Source: Proteiniphilum sp. UBA5267 (GTDB taxonomy: Bacteria; Bacteroidota; Bacteroidia; Bacteroidales; Dysgonomonadaceae). Taken from it: 19,985 nucleotides of DNA. The DNA lies in assembly GCA_002411515.1 (NCBI GenBank), contig DHTF01000085.1:52647-72631 (forward strand). Reading direction: 5' to 3'. The notes beneath the pieces are model-generated. The model did not search any database, was not told the origin of the DNA, and saw only the letters and a list, made by a program, of their open reading frames with translations. A program made the position numbers and the translations under genes. Positions 49-17,172 of the stretch are shown here, one piece after another (the stretch's first letter is position 1; every line of letters starts with the position of its first letter).

Positions 49-1019
49 CACAGCAACCGGATGCTTTTTTGGGGTGGCAGTTTCGGCTTGAAATAATCAA
101 GCGGAAAATCATACCGTAGATAAAACTCGTGGCTGCCTTTGCTTATGTCTCCCGGACCGCTTGTGTGTTTGTTGTATGCATATCCCATTTCCAGACCTTG
201 AAAAGTAGCACCGCCAAAAATGACATACCCGTCGCCCGGCGACCAGCTAAAGCCGCCTGAGAACTGTTTATTGTATTCCAGACGCAGTGTTGTCTGTATC
301 ACCGTCTCACTGAAATCGGACTGTACCCACACCATGGGTTGTAATACCAACGGATAAAATAGCGCAATATTGTATCCTGCCATGAAATTTATGGAGCGGG
401 GGATGGAGGCGCGCGCCGAGTCGCTCTGAAGGTCAGTGGTCACAGAATCGCTGAAAGCATAAAACTGCGGTTGGGTAATGTGTCGCACCGAGAGGCCGAT
501 GAATTCCTTCGCTCCGATCCAAGCAATGCCGGCATGTAGATCGGGCAGTTGTTTGTCCACTAAATTCACCCGCAGTAGAGGCTTCCCGTAGCCTTCTCCG
601 GAAATGGTTTCCCAGCTCCCTGCATCGAATTGCAAACTGTAGATACCTGCCTGCATTCCTAGCTGCAGGGCACCATTAGGCATTTCCCAGCGATAGCTGT
701 ACTGTCCGGCAAGGAGTCTGTTGCGGAGCGATCCCCTCTGTTCGCCGTAGACAACGATGCCAGCGCCCTGTCTCTTGCGGAGAAATTCTATCGGCAGATC
801 GGCAGTAAGAACCAATTTTTGCGGTGCATTTTCTACGCCAGCCCACTCATAGCGGTAGGCTGCTGCAGTGTGTATCTGCTCCGTGGAACCGGCAAAAGCA
901 GGGTTATAGAAACTCCTCACCGCCCAATAGTGACTGAACGGTACATCCCACTGTGCTTGCATCGGCAAGATGCAGCAGAGCAGCGAAAGAGATATGAAAG
1001 AGAATCGCCTTTTTCCCAT
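48..1019 (-). CDS. PorP/SprF-family type IX secretion-associated outer-membrane protein
   Basis: This 323-residue protein starts with a signal peptide (basic MGKRR, hydrophobic stretch, likely cleavage after QA near residue 22). The mature N-terminus carries the family hallmark, a short aromatic stretch followed by YNPAFAGS near residue 38. The rest alternates aromatic and polar residues, as expected of an outer-membrane beta-barrel of about 300 residues. PorP of Porphyromonas and SprF of Flavobacterium are needed for type IX secretion or for export of specific partners such as SprB; many genomes carry several paralogues. Here the gene is 37 nt behind the double-VOC gene with no terminator between them, so it is probably the last gene of the sulfonolipid-type operon. 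No large adhesin or OmpA/PD40 partner is adjacent. Family assignment is firm; the specific partner is unknown. Confidence 0.88.
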   Translation of the reverse strand: MGKRRFSFISLSLLCCILPMQAQWDVPFSHYWAVRSFYNPAFAGSTEQIHTAAAYRYEWAGVENAPQKLVLTADLPIEFLRKRQGAGIVVYGEQRGSLRNRLLAGQYSYRWEMPNGALQLGMQAGIYSLQFDAGSWETISGEGYGKPLLRVNLVDKQLPDLHAGIAWIGAKEFIGLSVRHITQPQFYAFSDSVTTDLQSDSARASIPRSINFMAGYNIALFYPLVLQPMVWVQSDFSETVIQTTLRLEYNKQFSGGFSWSPGDGYVIFGGATFQGLEMGYAYNKHTSGPGDISKGSHEFYLRYDFPLDYFKPKLPPQKSIRLL

Positions 1020-1056
1020 TGTAACAACAACGGGAAAAAGAGTGGAAAAATTGTGT

Positions 1057-2163
1057 TTACTGCAAACTTTCCGGCTTCACACGCATAAAGCGGAGCATGC
1101 CGAGCATCCATTTGGGCAGAGGCTTTTCGGGATCGCGTTTGCGGAGGTCGAGATATAGGTTCATATTCTTCATCAGTGGAATCTTGTGCGCTTCCACAAG
1201 TTCAATCAGTGTGCCGTCGGGGTCTTCTATGTACGCAAACTGGCCGGCTGCCTCGCCCATATCGAAAGATTGTCCCTCTTTGAATCTTCGTGAACTGTCG
1301 ACAGTGAAGAGATAGCCCATCTCTTCGCATTTTCTGCGTAGTGCATCGGTATTGCGTATATCGAAGCAGATTTGGATAAAGCCGGGGTCGCCCCAGTAGC
1401 GCCCCTCGTAGATCTTGCGCGGTGTGTGGTCGAGGGCTTGTACCAGCTCGATATAGGACTGACCGAATAACTCACTGAAGCTTCCCTTGCGCGGTTTACT
1501 GTGTGTGAGCAGTCGTCGCCGAAACGTGCCCTCTCCCGAGGGGAGAGCCTTCAGATCGTCGAATGTGCCAGTTTTGTCGGCAAGAACCACATCATAGCCA
1601 AGGATGTCACGGTAGATGGGCATGGCTTTGTCTATATCGGTCACCCCAATCAGGGCGCCGGCAATACCGCCGGTAAGCCGTTTCTCATCACGATAGACCG
1701 AAGGCTCGTGAATGATCTGAAAGATATTGCCAAAGGGATCTTTCATGAAAAAAGTCGGGTGTCCGTCGATGCCATCGGTGAGCCTGCCCAGAATAAGGAT
1801 ATTTTTTTTTCTGCTGAACAGTTCGTATGTTTTTACCACATCGCGGCTTTTAATCCTGGCTGCAAACACACCCAGATCACCTGCCTGAATCTCAAAACCA
1901 ACAGGTTGCGGCTTGCGTTCGGCGTACTGCCAGATCTCGAAGCCACCTCCTCCCTGCAAGTTCAGGGCTATGGCTGCACGGCGCTTCTGTGGTTTCCCAC
2001 CGGTGTAGGGCAACATCAACTCCGCCACCTTGTCATCCTCGAGGATGCGGATGTCCATGTTGAAAACGTCGATGTAATATTTCCACGCTTCGGCGAAGTT
2101 TTCCACGCCAATGCCGATCTGCTGTATGCCGGCAATGATGTATTCATTTTCCATATGCGTCAT
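1057..2163 (-). CDS. Double-VOC-domain (glyoxalase/dioxygenase superfamily) protein
   Basis: The 368-residue protein contains two tandem vicinal-oxygen-chelate domains, about residues 8-155 and 163-320, each with paired beta-alpha-beta-beta-beta units. Examples are the DPFGNIFQIIHE and DPDGTLIELVEAH ends. The two-domain layout recalls extradiol dioxygenases and 4-hydroxyphenylpyruvate dioxygenase. However, the usual metal-ligand histidines appear replaced: Q15 at the first strand, a leucine-type residue in the third module and Q in FIQICFD in the fourth. Glutamates at some ligand positions persist (IELVQA, IELVEA). It may therefore be a non-canonical or non-metal member. It lies 33 nt after the short-chain dehydrogenase and 37 nt before PorP/SprF, implying co-transcription. 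A second ATG three codons in (2154) is an alternative start. Substrate and reaction are unknown; a role in sulfonolipid modification is only suggested by position. Confidence 0.8.
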   Translation of the reverse strand: MTHMENEYIIAGIQQIGIGVENFAEAWKYYIDVFNMDIRILEDDKVAELMLPYTGGKPQKRRAAIALNLQGGGGFEIWQYAERKPQPVGFEIQAGDLGVFAARIKSRDVVKTYELFSRKKNILILGRLTDGIDGHPTFFMKDPFGNIFQIIHEPSVYRDEKRLTGGIAGALIGVTDIDKAMPIYRDILGYDVVLADKTGTFDDLKALPSGEGTFRRRLLTHSKPRKGSFSELFGQSYIELVQALDHTPRKIYEGRYWGDPGFIQICFDIRNTDALRRKCEEMGYLFTVDSSRRFKEGQSFDMGEAAGQFAYIEDPDGTLIELVEAHKIPLMKNMNLYLDLRKRDPEKPLPKWMLGMLRFMRVKPESLQ

Positions 2164-2196: not shown

Positions 2197-2988
2197 TCAG
2201 CTGTTTTTTATTTTCCGTACCATCCGGCGGGAGAGCCTCGGAAAAAATCGTTTGATGTAAACCATCAACAGTTCTTTTCCACCGACCAGTACCTCGGGTT
2301 TTTGTTTGTGGATGGCCCGCACAATTTTATGGGCTGCCTGTGCTGGGGAGATCCCATTTGCCTGTCCTTCATCCAAAAGCCCGTGTTTGCTGCCGTCGCT
2401 CTCCAGGGCATTGTATGATATATTTGTTTTTACTTGCCCCGGACAGACCATTACCACACGGATGTTGTCATCGTAATACTCGGCATGCACGGTCTCAAAA
2501 AAGCCGTAGAGGGCAAATTTGGATGAGGCGTAGGCTGAGCGAAGCGGAAAGCCGAACTTGCCGGAAATGCTGCTGGTGACAGCAATGGTTCCTCCACCGT
2601 TTTCAATCATTGCAGGCAACAGCCGTTTGGTGATCTTTACGGGGGCAAAGAAGTTCACATCCATGATCTTCCGGTCTACAGCAAAATCGGTTTCTGCCAT
2701 CTTCCCACGCTGACTGATGCCGGCATTGAGAAAGGCGATGTCAATGGAGCCGAACGCAGCCAGTGCTTGGTCGGTCAGCGCATCGATGTCTGCCAGGTTG
2801 GAGAGATCAAATGGGAGTACCTTGCATTGAGCTCCCAGCTGGATGCACTCCTGCTGTACCTCAGCCAGCCTTTCGGCCCGCGTAGCGGTAAGGATGAGGT
2901 TTGCCTTCTCACGGGCAAACTGATGGGCACATGCTTCGCCGATACCCGACGAGGCCCCCGTGATCCATATAGTTTTGTTGGCTGGCAT
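2197..2988 (-). CDS. capC: Short-chain dehydrogenase; probable 3-ketocapnine reductase (CapC-like)
   Basis: This 263-residue classical SDR has the cofactor motif TGASSGIG at residues 10-17 and NAG at 88-90. The catalytic set is N112, S140, Y153 and K157 (YASSK). An arginine just after the second strand (R37) favours NADPH over NADH. The C-terminus is basic (RFFPRLSRRMVRKIKNS), which could favour membrane-surface binding, as in 3-ketosphinganine reductases. It is 11 nt downstream of the threonine-synthase-like gene and follows an alpha-oxoamine synthase. This is the order expected for reduction of a 3-keto long-chain base. The inferred reaction is 3-ketocapnine plus NADPH to capnine. SDR assignment is certain; the substrate rests on context. 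A 3-ketosphinganine reductase role is the main alternative. Confidence 0.75.
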   Translation of the reverse strand: MPANKTIWITGASSGIGEACAHQFAREKANLILTATRAERLAEVQQECIQLGAQCKVLPFDLSNLADIDALTDQALAAFGSIDIAFLNAGISQRGKMAETDFAVDRKIMDVNFFAPVKITKRLLPAMIENGGGTIAVTSSISGKFGFPLRSAYASSKFALYGFFETVHAEYYDDNIRVVMVCPGQVKTNISYNALESDGSKHGLLDEGQANGISPAQAAHKIVRAIHKQKPEVLVGGKELLMVYIKRFFPRLSRRMVRKIKNS

Positions 2989-2999
2989 GTTTTTAGCGA

Positions 3000-4328
3000 T
3001 CAGTCTTCCAATAATTCCTTCCAGAGCTGGCTACGGAAGTCGTCGATGGAGTGGGGCGCACATTCATCTACATTGTTCACGTTGCGGGAGGTATAGACCA
3101 TCTGTTCCAGATAGTAAGGTGCCCGGTTGGGGCCTTCGCCGAGGTTGATCAGTACCGTCTCGCCGTTTTTGATGAGGTTCTTGCGCAGGGCGATGAAGAA
3201 TCCGGCCATGGCCACTGCGGAAGCGGGACCTGGGATCACCTTTTTCTCGTAGGCCATCAGCTTTCCCATCGACAACAGTTTCGATTCCCGCATGCGCAGG
3301 AAGGCGCCGCCGGATGCTTTTACCAGCTTTGCTACAATGGGGTAGGTGGCAGGATTACCGGTAGCCAGCGTGGGTACTTCGGTCTGTGGGTTATCAATTA
3401 TTGGGTATTCCTTCTCATAGCTTTCAGGGAAACCAGCCGCTTCGGCTTTCTCCCAAGCCTGTACCATGGGATCACATTTGTCAGTCTGCACCAACAGGAA
3501 GCGGGGGTTCTTCAGTTCAGGATACACATGCTTGATTTCTCGTATTCCTTTGTCGATGGCAATGGGTCCTGTGCCACCACTCACCGCCTGAATGTAAACA
3601 TCGGGAAATGTCTCCATCTGCCGCAACCATTCGAAGACCATGGTTTTCTTGGCTTCCACCCGAATGGGATCGATGTTGCCCGTGGACATGGGTATATTGT
3701 ATATTTTTGCATAGCCGGCCGCAATCTCTTTGGCTTTGGCATAATCACCCATCACCCGGAAGACCTGCTGCCCGTATGAACTGATGGTGGCCTCGGAAGT
3801 TTTGATGGCATCCTCGGGCATAAAGACGGAGCAGTTCACATTGGCCATAGAGAGATACCTGGCATAGGCTGTCGCGGAGTTGCCGGTGGAAGCAATGCAA
3901 TACTGATTGATTCCCAGCTCGTTGAATAGACTGGCAGCCATGGAGGCAGCAATATCCTTGAAGGTGCCCGTGCCACCGTTCAGATCATTGCGGTAGACAT
4001 GTACCCTGAGATTGAGATCAAACTCTTTCCTGGCGAACTCTTCCAAAAATGTCCATCGCTCTACAGGAATAGCCCCTTCACCTTTGGAGATGATGTGCCT
4101 CCGCCTAAGCAGTGGAAGAAAAGGAAAATAATGCCAGAAGCTGTCCGGCTTGCGTTTGAGGATGCGTGGCAGACGCTGGTAACGTCTGTTGTACCACACC
4201 TCAGAATGTTTACTCCCGCATTGGGGACATTGCTGGTTCTGGTCGAACCAGGTCCAGAAGTTGGGCGTCACATAGCCGCACTGAGTGCAGGTCAGGTGGT
4301 ACTTGTGCTGTATCTTGACACGTAACAT
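3000..4328 (-). CDS. capA: Threonine-synthase-like PLP enzyme; probable cysteate synthase (CapA-like)
   Basis: The 442-residue fold-type II PLP enzyme opens with a zinc ribbon (C14, C17, C34, C37), followed by a basic linker. A threonine-synthase-like core begins near residue 110. The PLP-binding lysine is K124 in GTFKD, the phosphate-binding glycine loop is SGGTG, and a late NLGEG segment closes the site. True threonine synthases of Bacteroidota occur with the homoserine genes, whereas this copy sits between a long-chain alpha-oxoamine synthase and an SDR. Archaeal cysteate synthase is a known threonine synthase paralogue that makes L-cysteate from O-phosphoserine and sulfite. The bacterial capnine pathway uses an analogous enzyme (published name CapA, from memory). 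I infer cysteate synthesis here. Gaps to neighbours are 15 and 11 nt. Fold certain, substrate inferred. Confidence 0.74.
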   Translation of the reverse strand: MLRVKIQHKYHLTCTQCGYVTPNFWTWFDQNQQCPQCGSKHSEVWYNRRYQRLPRILKRKPDSFWHYFPFLPLLRRRHIISKGEGAIPVERWTFLEEFARKEFDLNLRVHVYRNDLNGGTGTFKDIAASMAASLFNELGINQYCIASTGNSATAYARYLSMANVNCSVFMPEDAIKTSEATISSYGQQVFRVMGDYAKAKEIAAGYAKIYNIPMSTGNIDPIRVEAKKTMVFEWLRQMETFPDVYIQAVSGGTGPIAIDKGIREIKHVYPELKNPRFLLVQTDKCDPMVQAWEKAEAAGFPESYEKEYPIIDNPQTEVPTLATGNPATYPIVAKLVKASGGAFLRMRESKLLSMGKLMAYEKKVIPGPASAVAMAGFFIALRKNLIKNGETVLINLGEGPNRAPYYLEQMVYTSRNVNNVDECAPHSIDDFRSQLWKELLED

Positions 4329-4343
4329 GGATTGCGGATCAGG

Positions 4344-5606
4344 TTATTCAGTCGACATCGACTGCATCTCTTCTGCTTTGTATGCACCGGCTTCGAGATT
4401 TACTTTGATCTTTTTAAATACGGCGATGGTCTCATCCACCTCCTTCTGTGTGTGGGCAGCGGTGGGAATTAACCGGAGCATCAACACATCTTTTGGAACG
4501 ACAGGATAAGCAACGATGGAGCAGAAGATGCCATGATTTTCACGCAGATCGACTACGACGTTGGTTCCCTCAGCGACGTTCCCCTTTACGTAAACTGGAG
4601 TGACGGGCGATTGGGTGTTGCCGATATTGAAACCTTCGGCAACCAACCCTTCCTGGAGCGACCGGACTACGCTCCAGAGCTTTTCCCTGTGCTGGGGTTG
4701 TGTTTGCAGAATCTCCAGCCGCTTCAGTGCACCAATAACCATCGGCATGGGAAGCGATTTGGCAAAAATCTGCGAACGCATGTTGTACTTCAGTGAATCC
4801 ACGATTGCCTTTTTAGAAGCTACAAAAGCGCCTATACCGGCCATTGATTTGGCGAAGGTGGCAAAATAGATATCCACTTCGTCCATTAGTCCAAAGTGTT
4901 CGCTGGCACCTGCGCCACTCTCACCCATGGTGCCAAAACCATGCGCATCGTCAATCATTAGACGGAAACTGTACTTTTCACGCAGCTTCACAATACCGGG
5001 GAGGTTGCCTAAATCGCCCGACATGCCGAAGACCCCTTCGGTAATGACCAGAATGCCACCACCGGTTTCTTCTGCCTTGCGGGTGGCAAAACTGAGCATT
5101 TTGTCGCACCGTTCCATGTCGTTGTGCGGATAGACGAAGCTCTTGCCACCCTTGGCCTTGTGCAGAAAAATACCATCCATGATACAGGCATGTGACTCTG
5201 AATCGTAGACGATGACATCGTTGCGCGACACAAGTGAATCGAGAATGGATACCATTCCCTGATAGCCGTAGTTAAGCAGGTAGGCTGCTTCCTTCTTCTC
5301 AAAACGGGCCAGCTTCTCTTCCAGCTCCTTGTGGTACTTTGTCTGACCCGACATCATACGGGCACCCATGGGGTAAGCCATGCCCCAGTCGGCTGCAGCT
5401 TTCGCATCGGCAGCGCGCACTTCGGGGTGGTTGGCCAACCCCAGGTAATTGTTCAGACTCCAGGTGATTACTTCCTTGCCATGAAATTTCATGCGGGGTC
5501 CTATTTCACCTTCCAGCTCCGGAAACATAAAATACCCCTCCGCTTTTTGGCGATATTGTTCCAGTGGCCCATTGACGTTTTGTAGTCTCTCAAAAATATC
5601 TGTCAT
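4344..5606 (-). CDS. capB: Alpha-oxoamine synthase; probable cysteate fatty-acyltransferase (CapB-like)
   Basis: With start ATG at 5606 the product is 420 residues (MTDIFERL...). It is a fold-type I PLP enzyme of the BioF/Kbl/serine-palmitoyltransferase family. Motifs include SLNNYLGLANHPEV, the acyl-transfer histidine region SESHACIMDG, the PLP-clamping DDAHGFGTMGESG, and the Schiff-base lysine K253 in TFAKSMAGIGAF. This last motif resembles serine palmitoyltransferases (TFSKS) more than Kbl. The family condenses an amino acid with an acyl-thioester and releases CO2. Beside a cysteate-synthase-like gene and an SDR, the expected substrates are cysteate and fatty acyl thioester, giving 3-ketocapnine. 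An in-frame ATG at 5690 was rejected because it would overlap the DUF4834 gene by 35 nt and add a basic tail absent from the family. Serine palmitoyltransferase or glycine acetyltransferase are the alternatives. Confidence 0.77.
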   Translation of the reverse strand: MTDIFERLQNVNGPLEQYRQKAEGYFMFPELEGEIGPRMKFHGKEVITWSLNNYLGLANHPEVRAADAKAAADWGMAYPMGARMMSGQTKYHKELEEKLARFEKKEAAYLLNYGYQGMVSILDSLVSRNDVIVYDSESHACIMDGIFLHKAKGGKSFVYPHNDMERCDKMLSFATRKAEETGGGILVITEGVFGMSGDLGNLPGIVKLREKYSFRLMIDDAHGFGTMGESGAGASEHFGLMDEVDIYFATFAKSMAGIGAFVASKKAIVDSLKYNMRSQIFAKSLPMPMVIGALKRLEILQTQPQHREKLWSVVRSLQEGLVAEGFNIGNTQSPVTPVYVKGNVAEGTNVVVDLRENHGIFCSIVAYPVVPKDVLMLRLIPTAAHTQKEVDETIAVFKKIKVNLEAGAYKAEEMQSMSTE

Positions 5607-5655: not shown

Positions 5656-5901
5656 TTATTTTTCTCCGTCCTTGCTTTTGATTTCCACAAAATCTACATC
5701 CTCCACATCGCTCTTTTCAAAGTTTTTTTTCTGATATTCGATGATGCGATCCTCCTGTTTTTCAGGCTGTCTTGTGTATGTCTGTTGCTGCTGACGAGGT
5801 GGAGCCTGTGTATTTCTTTTTCCTGTTAAAAAGCGGACAAATGCTTTCATTGCTAGGTAAACGATCGTAAAGAAGAGGAGAAATTTAATTAGAAATCCCA
5901 T
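5656..5901 (-). CDS. DUF4834-type small membrane protein
   Basis: This 81-residue protein has one hydrophobic N-terminal helix (about residues 3-25), then a basic Q/P/R-rich linker (residues 27-50). It ends in a charged tail with the acidic stretch KSDVEDVDFVEIKSKDGEK. This layout matches the Bacteroidota-specific DUF4834 family, whose role is unknown. It starts 71 nt after the pssA stop and precedes the sulfonolipid-type genes by 49 nt. A good promoter lies just upstream, so it is the first gene of that unit. A single-pass inner-membrane protein with a cytoplasmic tail is the likely topology. Confidence 0.7.
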   Translation of the reverse strand: MGFLIKFLLFFTIVYLAMKAFVRFLTGKRNTQAPPRQQQQTYTRQPEKQEDRIIEYQKKNFEKSDVEDVDFVEIKSKDGEK

Positions 5902-5926
5902 ATGGTGTATAAAAATTTATTACAAG

Positions 5927-5958
5927 TAAAGATATAATGAATTGGTTGATCCACAGAA
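5927..5958 (-). promoter_or_regulatory. Candidate Bacteroidota-type promoter for the sulfonolipid operon
   Basis: On the minus strand a TTCTG (-33, 5954-5958) is followed after exactly 19 nt by TATCTTTA (-7, 5927-5934). Each box is one mismatch from the TTTTG / TAnnTTTG consensus. Transcription would begin near 5920, about 20 nt before the DUF4834 ATG at 5901. Confidence 0.5.
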
Positions 5959-5972
5959 GCGGTTTGTATAAT

Positions 5973-6674
5973 TTAACGATTTGCGGAGGGCGTAATCACC
6001 GAGAGCAGGATGTAGGAGAGTATACCCCAGGCAATGCCGGCTATGCCCCATATCGCTACCAGAACAACCATCATCACTGCCAAAAGCCATTGCCGCTCAT
6101 ATCCCTTCCAACTGATTTTTTTAATTTTAAGGGAAAACATCGGTATCTCCGATACCATCAACCAGGAGAGCAAAGCGACCAGGATAAAGATCGCTGGGAA
6201 AACAATATAGCTGCTGCCTGCTATATCGGAAACGGCCACGCTGAAGCTTACCCAGAAAAGACCATTGGCGGGTGTGGGCAGTCCCCTGAAGGAAGTTGTC
6301 TGCCTCTCATCGATGTTAAATTTGGCCAGGCGCAGCGCCGAAAACAACGGAATCATAAAAGCCAGATAGGGAATATATATTTGTAGTGGCTCAGTGAAGC
6401 CGGGAAGGAGAGTGTGGTCACGTAACAAGACGAACAGTGCCGCTGCAGGAGCCACGCCAAAGCTGACCACGTCGGCCAACGAGTCGAGTTCCTTGCCAAT
6501 GTCGGAGTAGGCTTTCAGCAGGCGGGCAAAGACGCCATCGAGAAAGTCAAAGAGTGCTGCCAGGGTCACCCATACTGCTACAGCGGTGAAATTCCCTTCG
6601 AAGGCCATGGCGATGGCAACACACCCCGCAAAGAGGTTGGCCAATGTGATGATGTTGGGTATATGTTTCCGCAT
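5973..6674 (-). CDS. pssA: CDP-diacylglycerol--serine O-phosphatidyltransferase
   Basis: The 233-residue integral membrane enzyme joins CDP-diacylglycerol and serine to give phosphatidylserine. The complete CDP-alcohol phosphotransferase signature is present: D43, D46, G47, A50, R51, G60, D64 and D68 with canonical spacing. Roughly six hydrophobic helices flank it, and several follow in the C-terminal half. It begins 71 nt after psd, the next enzyme of the phosphatidylethanolamine pathway, with no terminator between them. The two genes are therefore probably co-transcribed. Length and topology are normal for the type II family of Bacteroidota. The serine substrate is inferred from the psd neighbour and from family. 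Confidence 0.93.
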   Translation of the reverse strand: MRKHIPNIITLANLFAGCVAIAMAFEGNFTAVAVWVTLAALFDFLDGVFARLLKAYSDIGKELDSLADVVSFGVAPAAALFVLLRDHTLLPGFTEPLQIYIPYLAFMIPLFSALRLAKFNIDERQTTSFRGLPTPANGLFWVSFSVAVSDIAGSSYIVFPAIFILVALLSWLMVSEIPMFSLKIKKISWKGYERQWLLAVMMVVLVAIWGIAGIAWGILSYILLSVITPSANR

Positions 6675-6745
6675 AATTGTAATCTTGTTTATCGGGGTCT
6701 ATTGACAAAAATGCTACGATGCATTGGAAATGGGTTGCTACCGGT

Positions 6746-7432
6746 TTATTCTTGCACCTGTTTGCTCAGACGTGCCAGAAACGTGACGTTGGCACGCACT
6801 TCTTCGCCGATATCCACCAGAATATCGCTATCAGGGGGTAGATATATATCCATGCGGGAGCCCAGTTTGATAAAACCCAGCGGTGAACCTATATGAACTT
6901 CTTCACCTTCCTTTACGTATGTGATGATGCGTCGCGCCATGGCTCCTGCAATTTGTTTGGTGAGGATTAGCCCATATTCGGGCGTCTCAATCAGAATGTT
7001 GGTGTGTTCGTTCTCGCTGCTCGATTTGGGCAGGTAGGCAGCATGGAAATTACCATCCACATGGGACTGGTGCACAATCTTTCCGGTTACAGGTACCCAG
7101 TTGGCATGGGCGTTGAATAACGACATGAAAATAGATATCTTGATGCGTTCGTCGTGCAGAAATTCCTTCTCGGTCACTTTCTCGATGGTGACAATACGTC
7201 CGTCTGTGGGTGCATTCACCAGCCCATGCAGATCACCTTTGTAGGTGCGATCGGGACTTCTGTAAAAGTTTAGTGTCATCGCAAAGAACAGCACCGATAT
7301 AAAAAAGAAAATAGTCGTGAAGTATGTGTCGGTAAGAAAGATGAAGTTGATCAGGTTTATGAATACCAGCACAGAGAATATTCTGGCTAAAGGCGTCTTC
7401 CCCTCTTTGTGTATTTGAAATTTTTTTTCCAT
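6746..7432 (-). CDS. psd: Phosphatidylserine decarboxylase, short form
   Basis: This 228-residue proenzyme converts phosphatidylserine to phosphatidylethanolamine. Two hydrophobic segments near residues 19-52 anchor it in the inner membrane. The self-cleavage site is LGSRMD, with S192 becoming the pyruvoyl group of the short C-terminal alpha chain. The segment FMSLFNAHANWVPVTG (about residues 103-118) is the conserved family motif with the active-site histidine. The short size is typical of the small PSD class seen in Bacteroidota. Its ATG overlaps the stop of the CvpA-like gene by one base (TAATG), indicating translational coupling. It is followed by pssA. Confidence 0.94.
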   Translation of the reverse strand: MEKKFQIHKEGKTPLARIFSVLVFINLINFIFLTDTYFTTIFFFISVLFFAMTLNFYRSPDRTYKGDLHGLVNAPTDGRIVTIEKVTEKEFLHDERIKISIFMSLFNAHANWVPVTGKIVHQSHVDGNFHAAYLPKSSSENEHTNILIETPEYGLILTKQIAGAMARRIITYVKEGEEVHIGSPLGFIKLGSRMDIYLPPDSDILVDIGEEVRANVTFLARLSKQVQE

Positions 7433-16344: not shown

Positions 16345-17172
16345 TCACAACAAGGATCGCAAAATATCTTCGTCTGCAATCAGAAGAGAACCAATCCTTC
16401 TGGAAGAACTGTCAGGAGTCTCCCTTAAAATACCTTTGGCTACCAACACGTTTATGGCAGCAATTTCCCGGTGACTTAGCCGCTGGGAGCCAGTCTGCAG
16501 ATTGTTTTGTGCGGCAATCTTTTGCAGTACCTGCTTCTCTTCTTCCGTTAGGTTTGCGGTTTCGTGGACAGATGCAACTACTCCGTCGCCCTGTTGTATC
16601 TTTTGGCTACCCGCTCTCCAGATGGCAATCTCGGCACTTTTTATGCTGTAATCTTCCATCATCACAAAGAGATTGGGAAGGAATAACCGGGTGTAATAAT
16701 AACCACCAGTAAAACCTGTAATAAAAAAGTAGATCAACAGAGAGATTATTATGGGAGCGGCATAGTGGCAATTCATCTCCTCGCAGTTGCTATACATCAA
16801 AATATTGTCGGCAATACTATCCAGGTAGCCGGGTATTTTTGTCAGTTGAGTCAGTGTAACGCCAATGATGATCTTTGTGAGCCAGTCTGATACATCCTCC
16901 AGATTAGTATTGGGCATGTACCGGGTAGTACTGTTCTCTTTTTCTGTGGAATCGTAATTTCTGTTCAGCCTGGGTATTCCAAAGAGAAAACCAGTGAGCA
17001 GACCGCACAACATCGCTGCCAGCGAGAGCAAGAGCAGCAATCCGAGAAGCTCCCAGTAGGCCTCGGCAACAACTGCACCGGCAAAGCATGCTCCAATGCC
17101 GACAACCACAAGGACGAGAGGCCACAAATGAATGGGCCGAAAAAGACCAGAGAGTGAACGGTAATTGGTCAT
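16345..17172 (-). CDS. Uncharacterised multi-pass membrane protein with cytoplasmic tail
   Basis: This 275-residue protein has two strong membrane helices at about 16-40 and 42-66, ending in the motif GFLFGIPRLN. A conserved-looking juxtamembrane segment follows (YMPNTNLEDVSDWLTKIIIGVTLTQL). A further helix lies near residues 140-165 (IIISLLIYFFITGFTGGYYYTRL). The last 80 residues are soluble and predicted helical (NLTEEEKQVLQKIA ... HREIAAINVLVAKGILRE), similar in feel to a winged-helix or regulatory tail. I recognise the FLFGIPR / NTNLExxSDWLTKI combination as recurring in unnamed bacterial membrane proteins but cannot assign a function. It precedes the S8 protease by 71 nt on the same strand, which suggests a partner, sensor or substrate. 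Confidence 0.75.
   Translation of the reverse strand: MTNYRSLSGLFRPIHLWPLVLVVVGIGACFAGAVVAEAYWELLGLLLLLSLAAMLCGLLTGFLFGIPRLNRNYDSTEKENSTTRYMPNTNLEDVSDWLTKIIIGVTLTQLTKIPGYLDSIADNILMYSNCEEMNCHYAAPIIISLLIYFFITGFTGGYYYTRLFLPNLFVMMEDYSIKSAEIAIWRAGSQKIQQGDGVVASVHETANLTEEEKQVLQKIAAQNNLQTGSQRLSHREIAAINVLVAKGILRETPDSSSRRIGSLLIADEDILRSLL

Follow-up and report, generated by a model that had tools for sequence, protein, structure and literature searches.

Four head-to-tail genes on the minus strand of contig DHTF01000085.1 from Proteiniphilum sp. UBA5267 very probably make up a sulfonolipid cluster, in which a cysteate fatty-acyltransferase (CFAT) is followed by a threonine-synthase-like (TSL) pyridoxal-phosphate (PLP) enzyme, a short-chain dehydrogenase/reductase (SDR) and a vicinal-oxygen-chelate (VOC) protein. 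The window referred to throughout is the whole stretch analysed, 19,985 nt at positions 52,647 to 72,631 of the contig, and coordinates given without a locus name are those of the window. A preliminary description of this DNA had proposed a capnine-type sulfonolipid cluster of three genes, an inference well supported by the identity of CFAT and by the separate genes for threonine synthase (ThrC), serine palmitoyltransferase (SPT) and 2-amino-3-ketobutyrate CoA ligase (KBL) found in the genome. We reproduced exactly its three minus-strand genes with gaps of 15 nt between CFAT and TSL (4329-4343) and 11 nt between TSL and SDR (2989-2999), and obtained the same families for them (alpha-oxoamine synthase, zinc-ribbon PLP enzyme and SDR). 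Its extent was one gene short, the conserved VOC gene, which begins 33 nt past the SDR on the same strand, having been overlooked. The four genes are as follows:

4344..5606, minus strand: CFAT (SulA, CapB), cysteate fatty-acyltransferase, 420 aa, from phmmer scores to SulA/CFAT chains
3000..4328, minus strand: TSL, threonine-synthase-like PLP enzyme of PALP fold, 442 aa, proposed third-lineage cysteate synthase
2197..2988, minus strand: SDR, proposed 3-ketocapnine reductase, 263 aa, matching NF004825/PRK06181
1057..2163, minus strand: VOC, two-domain vicinal-oxygen-chelate protein, 368 aa, fourth cluster member, proposed 3-ketocapnine isomerase/epimerase

We propose that these genes form one sulfonolipid operon, in which TSL would convert O-phosphoserine and sulfite to L-cysteate, CFAT would produce 3-ketocapnine from cysteate and an acyl-acyl carrier protein (acyl-ACP), a step for which homology argues strongly, and SDR would reduce 3-ketocapnine to capnine, as its family, position and clade suggest. 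VOC might be a metal-dependent isomerase or epimerase that transfers a proton beside the keto group of 3-ketocapnine, and N-acylation of capnine would fall to an enzyme encoded elsewhere. All of these activities, and the substrates of TSL and SDR, are predicted ones, the VOC reaction being the most tentative.

The acyltransferase and its conserved neighbours

The CFAT reading frame starts at an ATG, while the mechanical open reading frame (ORF) extends to a TTG at 5690. Searches with phmmer gave 587.5 bits to 7u7h, which we take to be the structure of Alistipes finegoldii SulA (entry title '7-keto-8-aminopelargonate synthetase-like enzyme'), and 560.9 bits to 28eh ('Cysteate-C-fatty acyltransferase'), compared with 254 bits to the SPT 3a2b and at most 229 bits to KBL/BioF-type chains. 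The paper on A. finegoldii SulA describes Lys281 of SulA, versus Ala in SPT, as the diagnostic residue (PMC9304779). The equivalent residue was located in the aligned CFAT rows:

4758..4760, minus strand: codon of Lys283, equivalent of SulA Lys281

Lysine occupies this position in 96/96 CFAT rows, the window gene accounting for 3 of them, whereas the SPT of the same genome has Ala there and its KBL has Asn. The separate SPT scores 666.9 bits against the curated model NF047600 (cut-off 640) and the separate KBL 685.2 bits against TIGR01822 (cut-off 493), both above threshold. The preliminary description had named a grouping of the synthase with Kbl/BioF as evidence against its reading and had advised a search for separate thrC and spt genes; by score and by Lys283 the protein sides with SulA/CFAT, and ThrC, SPT and also KBL are all encoded elsewhere in the genome. 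Judged by its sequence, the alpha-oxoamine synthase of the window is thus a CFAT/SulA and not an SPT.

Conservation of gene order was assessed in the best 80 of 95 TSL loci, where CFAT lies within 3 kb upstream in 58, SDR within 1.5 kb downstream in 49 and VOC within 1 kb after SDR in 44. Among testable loci, defined as those with enough contig on both sides, the order CFAT-TSL-SDR-VOC is intact in 34/39 where TSL identity is 60% or more and in 0/17 where it is lower, and it persists in loci that show no nearby pssA or psd (phospholipid genes; e.g. L049, L050, L054-L058). A contig of Proteiniphilum acetatigenes DSM 18083 (L025) likewise carries the four genes. The clustering of the four genes exceeds chance. 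CFAT is missing from the region just upstream of TSL in 22 loci; 17 of these were traced to genomes, CFAT being encoded elsewhere in 15 of them.

Co-occurrence was analyzed in a sample of 247 Bacteroidales genomes with cut-offs of E <= 1e-100 for CFAT, 1e-60 for TSL, 1e-40 for VOC and 1e-40 for archaeal-type cysteate synthase (CS), the p values being uncorrected for relatedness. This revealed CFAT in 175 genomes, TSL in 47, VOC in 82 and archaeal-type CS in 66, two matches having been set aside as TSL genes themselves, while CapA passes its model cut-off in 0/247. CFAT accompanies TSL in 40/47 TSL genomes (Fisher p=0.02) and VOC in 75/82 VOC genomes (p=1.3e-7), and TSL and VOC occur together in 35 genomes (p=1e-10). 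When the 175 CFAT genomes are divided by their candidate cysteate synthase, 40 have TSL alone, 62 have archaeal-type CS alone, none has both and 73 have neither (p=1.8e-9). In 20 CFAT loci (L163-L182) of genomes without TSL or CS, profiles for TSL, CS and CapA found none near CFAT, other PLP enzymes not having been searched for. The sample's three remaining members of the family to which the window belongs have no CFAT, TSL or VOC at the stated thresholds, so the distribution of the system is patchy.

Candidate enzymes beside the acyltransferase

TSL is a PALP-fold PLP enzyme with an N-terminal Cys4 zinc ribbon, each cysteine of which is at least 98% conserved in an 84-row TSL alignment:

4218..4289, minus strand: TSL Cys4 zinc ribbon (C14, C17, C34, C37)

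The protein scores below the curated cut-off of each characterized relative, with 156.9 bits against the threonine synthase model PRK08197 (NF006050; cut-off 303), 102.6 bits against archaeal-type cysteate synthase TIGR03844 (cut-off 324.9) and 94.6 bits against ThrC TIGR00260 (cut-off 167.1), and the CapA model NF053679 is not among the 16 families matching it at E <= 0.001. Elsewhere, the genome encodes a true ThrC (TIGR00260, 311 bits) and a separate CysK, with no CapA (NF053679) match at 1e-95. An unrooted tree of 35 rows, in which long branches meet and ThrC is represented by four chains that do not include the genome's own, resolved three groups: TSL (18 rows, 91/85), archaeal-type CS including the solved structure 9k3c (13 rows, 100/100) and ThrC (4 chains, 100/99). 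With the solved 9k3c, which groups with 12 archaeal-type CS proteins of Bacteroidales (100/100), the window TSL shares 27% identity. TSL and CS have in common a loop (QAV.GGTG / QA(V/I)GSGTG) and a DY motif, neither of them present in the ThrC chains, which have PVGNAGN at the loop. Two identities were rejected along the way: TSL as the genome's only ThrC, given the true ThrC found elsewhere, and TSL as CapA or archaeal-type CS, given sub-cut-off or absent model matches and a separate tree group. As far as sequence can indicate, TSL probably represents a third cysteate-synthase lineage.

CysDN together with CysH would produce the sulfite that such an enzyme is proposed to use. Genes for CysH, CysD, CysN and/or a sulfate-type permease, assigned by Pfam and similarity, lie among CFAT, VOC and TSL in eight loci (L075, L192, L199, L202, L208-L211), and in L202 a CysH-like gene sits between TSL and CFAT. 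They occur in 8/129 TSL- or VOC-selected loci versus 0/40 controls (20 CFAT loci outside Bacteroidales and 20 CFAT-only loci of Bacteroidales), a difference not counted as significant, several of the eight having been selected for CFAT, TSL or VOC lying close together. With none in the controls, in the closer loci or in the window, the link to sulfite supply is suggestive and not statistical. Four of these loci (L192, L208, L209 and L211) carry one island in which CFAT is divergent from VOC-CysH-CysD-CysN-permease; TSL lies beyond the island in three of them, with none in the fetched stretch of L209. In G565 (L199), a CysH-like gene lies ~1.3 kb from VOC.

SDR matches NF004825/PRK06181 with 229.7 bits, above the cut-off of 215, and is of the classical type, with TGASSGIG and S140, Y153 and K157 conserved in a 53-row alignment. 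Eleven cluster SDRs group with 14 VOC-adjacent SDRs in a single clade, to which 8 other SDRs of the genome do not belong. From family, position and clade, SDR would be the 3-ketocapnine reductase. The ketoreductase of C. gleum was picked among 33 SDR homologues (PMC11211663), and the conserved SDR-VOC pair narrows the list of candidates for this enzyme among many SDRs. In L200 (2975-7068), CFAT is flanked by one SDR on each side and then by VOC, giving two candidate ketoreductases.

The AlphaFold2 model of VOC has a mean pLDDT of 93.8 and its fold matches the VOC superfamily. Putative metal ligands were assigned by eye from strands 1 and 4 of modules 1 and 4 of this model:

1201..2121, minus strand: putative VOC metal site from alignment A1, Q15 (2119-2121), E76 (1936-1938), Q264 (1372-1374) and E321 (1201-1203)

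In alignment A1, Q15 is conserved in 59/60 rows, E76 in 58/60, His or Gln at 264 in 59/60 and E321 in 58/60; the third putative ligand, Gln in the window protein, is Gln in 27/60 rows and His in 32/60. The by-eye assignment compares with Q/H-E-H-E, Gln replacing His at the third ligand, and the putative site may be glyoxalase-I-like. In the structure comparison 4huz, 1zsw and 3oaj came out within 1.5 Z, so that a function cannot be read from the fold, and VOC enzymes of the glyoxalase I or methylmalonyl-CoA epimerase type are ~16% identical to the window protein.

Genomic context ties VOC to the same genes. SDR immediately adjoins VOC in 23/39 VOC loci, and at a threshold of 1e-30 VOC was detected in 12/40 hand-picked CFAT-positive versus 0/40 CFAT-negative genomes. 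Outside Bacteroidales, VOC adjoins CFAT in L203, L204 and L230 and lies one gene apart from it in L116. In three of these loci (L116 5886-9266, L203 2145-5576 and L204 7950-11276), an AMP-ligase and an acyl carrier domain are fused ahead of CFAT (1108-1143 aa) with VOC nearby, and in L116 a fatty-acid hydroxylase gene lies between the CFAT fusion and VOC. The putative metal site and the pairing with SDR allow the tentative suggestion that VOC isomerises or epimerises 3-ketocapnine. Reductase assays have given two product peaks, taken as epimers (PMC11211663), and this may be the point at which an epimerase activity of VOC could matter; the same paper lists m/z 364.25 and 366.26 for the palmitoyl forms of 3-ketocapnine and capnine. 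We put forward as a conjecture, more doubtful than not, a combined hypothesis: that sulfonolipid biosynthesis has an unrecognised step, in which VOC would act as a metal-dependent 3-ketocapnine isomerase/epimerase with the adjacent ketoreductase and would determine which stereoisomer or tautomer of capnine arises in some Bacteroidota, ranging from Bacteroidales to the AMP-ligase/ACP/CFAT-fusion lineages, and that TSL would be a third, independently recruited cysteate synthase.

Conflicting observations and alternative assignments

Several results pull against these assignments. TSL is nearer ThrC than CS in the tree, the branch joining TSL and ThrC versus CS having 100/100; its sequence is likewise closer to ThrC than to CS, and residues ~217-229 retain a ThrC-like N.DP.R.E..KT stretch. 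A CFAT match at 1e-100 is absent in 7/47 TSL genomes and in 7/82 VOC genomes, one of the latter (G618) having a partial CFAT, and G416, which has TSL and VOC and no CFAT match, is rated 99% complete. The two traced TSL loci whose genomes have no CFAT-level match are from Chlorobiota. No sulfite genes are present in the window or in the 56 closer TSL loci, and VOC is absent from 28/40 hand-picked CFAT-positive genomes and from 100/175 CFAT-positive genomes of Bacteroidales; VOC would thus be dispensable for some sulfonolipids.

Six genomes in all (G416, G430, G477, G549, G562 and G565) have TSL and VOC without a CFAT match. On the Chlorobiota contigs L087 and L095, TSL is ~53% identical and the genomes show only KBL-level CFAT matches (E about 1e-47 to 1e-48); cysteate may serve another purpose there, or the assemblies may be incomplete.

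Proteins of the VOC type are common and frequently act in detoxification, and the one in the cluster could be a passenger that serves detoxification or resistance and plays no part in making the lipid. The many CFAT genomes without VOC, and the VOC genomes of Bacteroidales without a full CFAT match, would fit such a role, but VOC was not found in the 40 CFAT-negative genomes at 1e-30, and its partners are SDRs of a single clade or, in distant families, CFAT itself; we regard the passenger explanation as unlikely.

TSL could alternatively be a threonine synthase additional to ThrC, or a beta-replacing PLP enzyme of another kind, and merely a neighbour of CFAT. Its best NCBIfam matches are threonine synthases (PRK08197 at the head), its nearest PDB relatives by sequence are ThrC, the unrooted tree points the same way, and public names of its relatives say threonine synthase. 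The preliminary description had anticipated such naming, and among 120 matches listed the named relatives are indeed 'threonine synthase' or 'pyridoxal-phosphate dependent enzyme'. It had also proposed asking whether the enzyme clusters with genuine ThrC in a genome without another thrC; TSL forms its own group apart from the four ThrC chains and a separate ThrC exists, although in the unrooted tree TSL lies nearer to ThrC than to archaeal-type CS. Against a threonine synthase, TSL falls under every ThrC cut-off, the genome has its true ThrC elsewhere, TSL adjoins and co-occurs with CFAT and is mutually exclusive with CS, its active-site loop is CS-like, and a CysH-like gene separates it from CFAT in L202. 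We therefore consider it quite improbable that TSL is a threonine synthase or an unrelated neighbour, and retain the assignment of TSL as a probable cysteate synthase.

A dioxygenase or oxygenase function, by which VOC would alter the lipid chain, seems a poor prospect. That the synthase is SPT or KBL, with the cluster yielding a sphingoid base instead of capnine, is very remote: the enzymes share a superfamily and the best NCBIfam model of CFAT is SerpalmtaseCFB (308.9 bits, cut-off 640), but SulA/CFAT chains score twice as high, Lys283 stands at the diagnostic position and the genome has its own SPT, above the curated cut-off, and KBL, on which grounds both identities were excluded.

Surroundings and comparison with known systems

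Directly upstream of CFAT lie an 81-aa ORF without a family, pssA and psd (5656-7432), a neighbourhood kept in those Proteiniphilum/Petrimonas loci with sufficient contig, so that phospholipid genes are colocated with the sulfonolipid genes. At the other end, a PorP/SprF-family type IX secretion membrane protein adjoins the cluster (48-1019), and a weak candidate for the operon end came from a consensus scan that returned 16 sites per 9.5 kb versus 10.0 in shuffled sequence:

1008..1041, minus strand: terminator-like hairpin directly 3' of VOC, possible operon end

Further away, a 275-aa ORF at 16345-17172 has no match in either Pfam or PHROGs.

Sulfonolipids influence gliding and host signalling (PMC11211663, PMC10191378), and their producers are predicted from genes. 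Should TSL prove to be a third cysteate synthase, a search by CapA and archaeal-type CS alone would overlook 40/102 Bacteroidales CFAT genomes with an identified candidate. The SDR-VOC pair points to a step for which we found no assignment in the open-access literature: mostly in title-level listings, no paper was found linking a VOC/glyoxalase or threonine-synthase-like protein to capnine in Bacteroidota, and a comparative table that includes a glyoxalase-family gene concerns another sulfonolipid, that of roseobacters (PMC8319176).

The capnine pathway CapA-CapB-CapC has been described in Capnocytophaga ochracea and Ornithobacterium (Liu et al. 2022, as cited in PMC10191378 and PMC12927429). 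The window cluster resembles it in having the same acyltransferase family, the same kind of reductase and a cysteate synthase gene beside the acyltransferase gene. It differs in that CapA is CBS/CysK-like (NF053679), a model to which the window TSL has no match, and in that the reductase and VOC belong to the cluster. CapA is the best model of the CFAT-adjacent ORF in 5/8 scanned loci outside Bacteroidales (L100, L108, L109, L110 and L114), above the cut-off in two. With the SulA system of Alistipes and Odoribacter, the cluster shares the CFAT family with its diagnostic Lys and the order Bacteroidales (PMC9304779, PMC10191378), but the cysteate synthase of that system is of the archaeal type. 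The preliminary description had held that capnine synthesis needs exactly the families found here; this does not fit the characterized cysteate synthases of Bacteroidota, which are CapA (CBS/CysK-like) or archaeal-type CS (PMC10191378). In C. gleum and A. finegoldii, the genes for the ketoreductase are reported not to be clustered with cfat and cys (PMC11211663). The pathway itself is already known; the window departs from it in the lineage of its first enzyme, in the clustered reductase and in the VOC gene.

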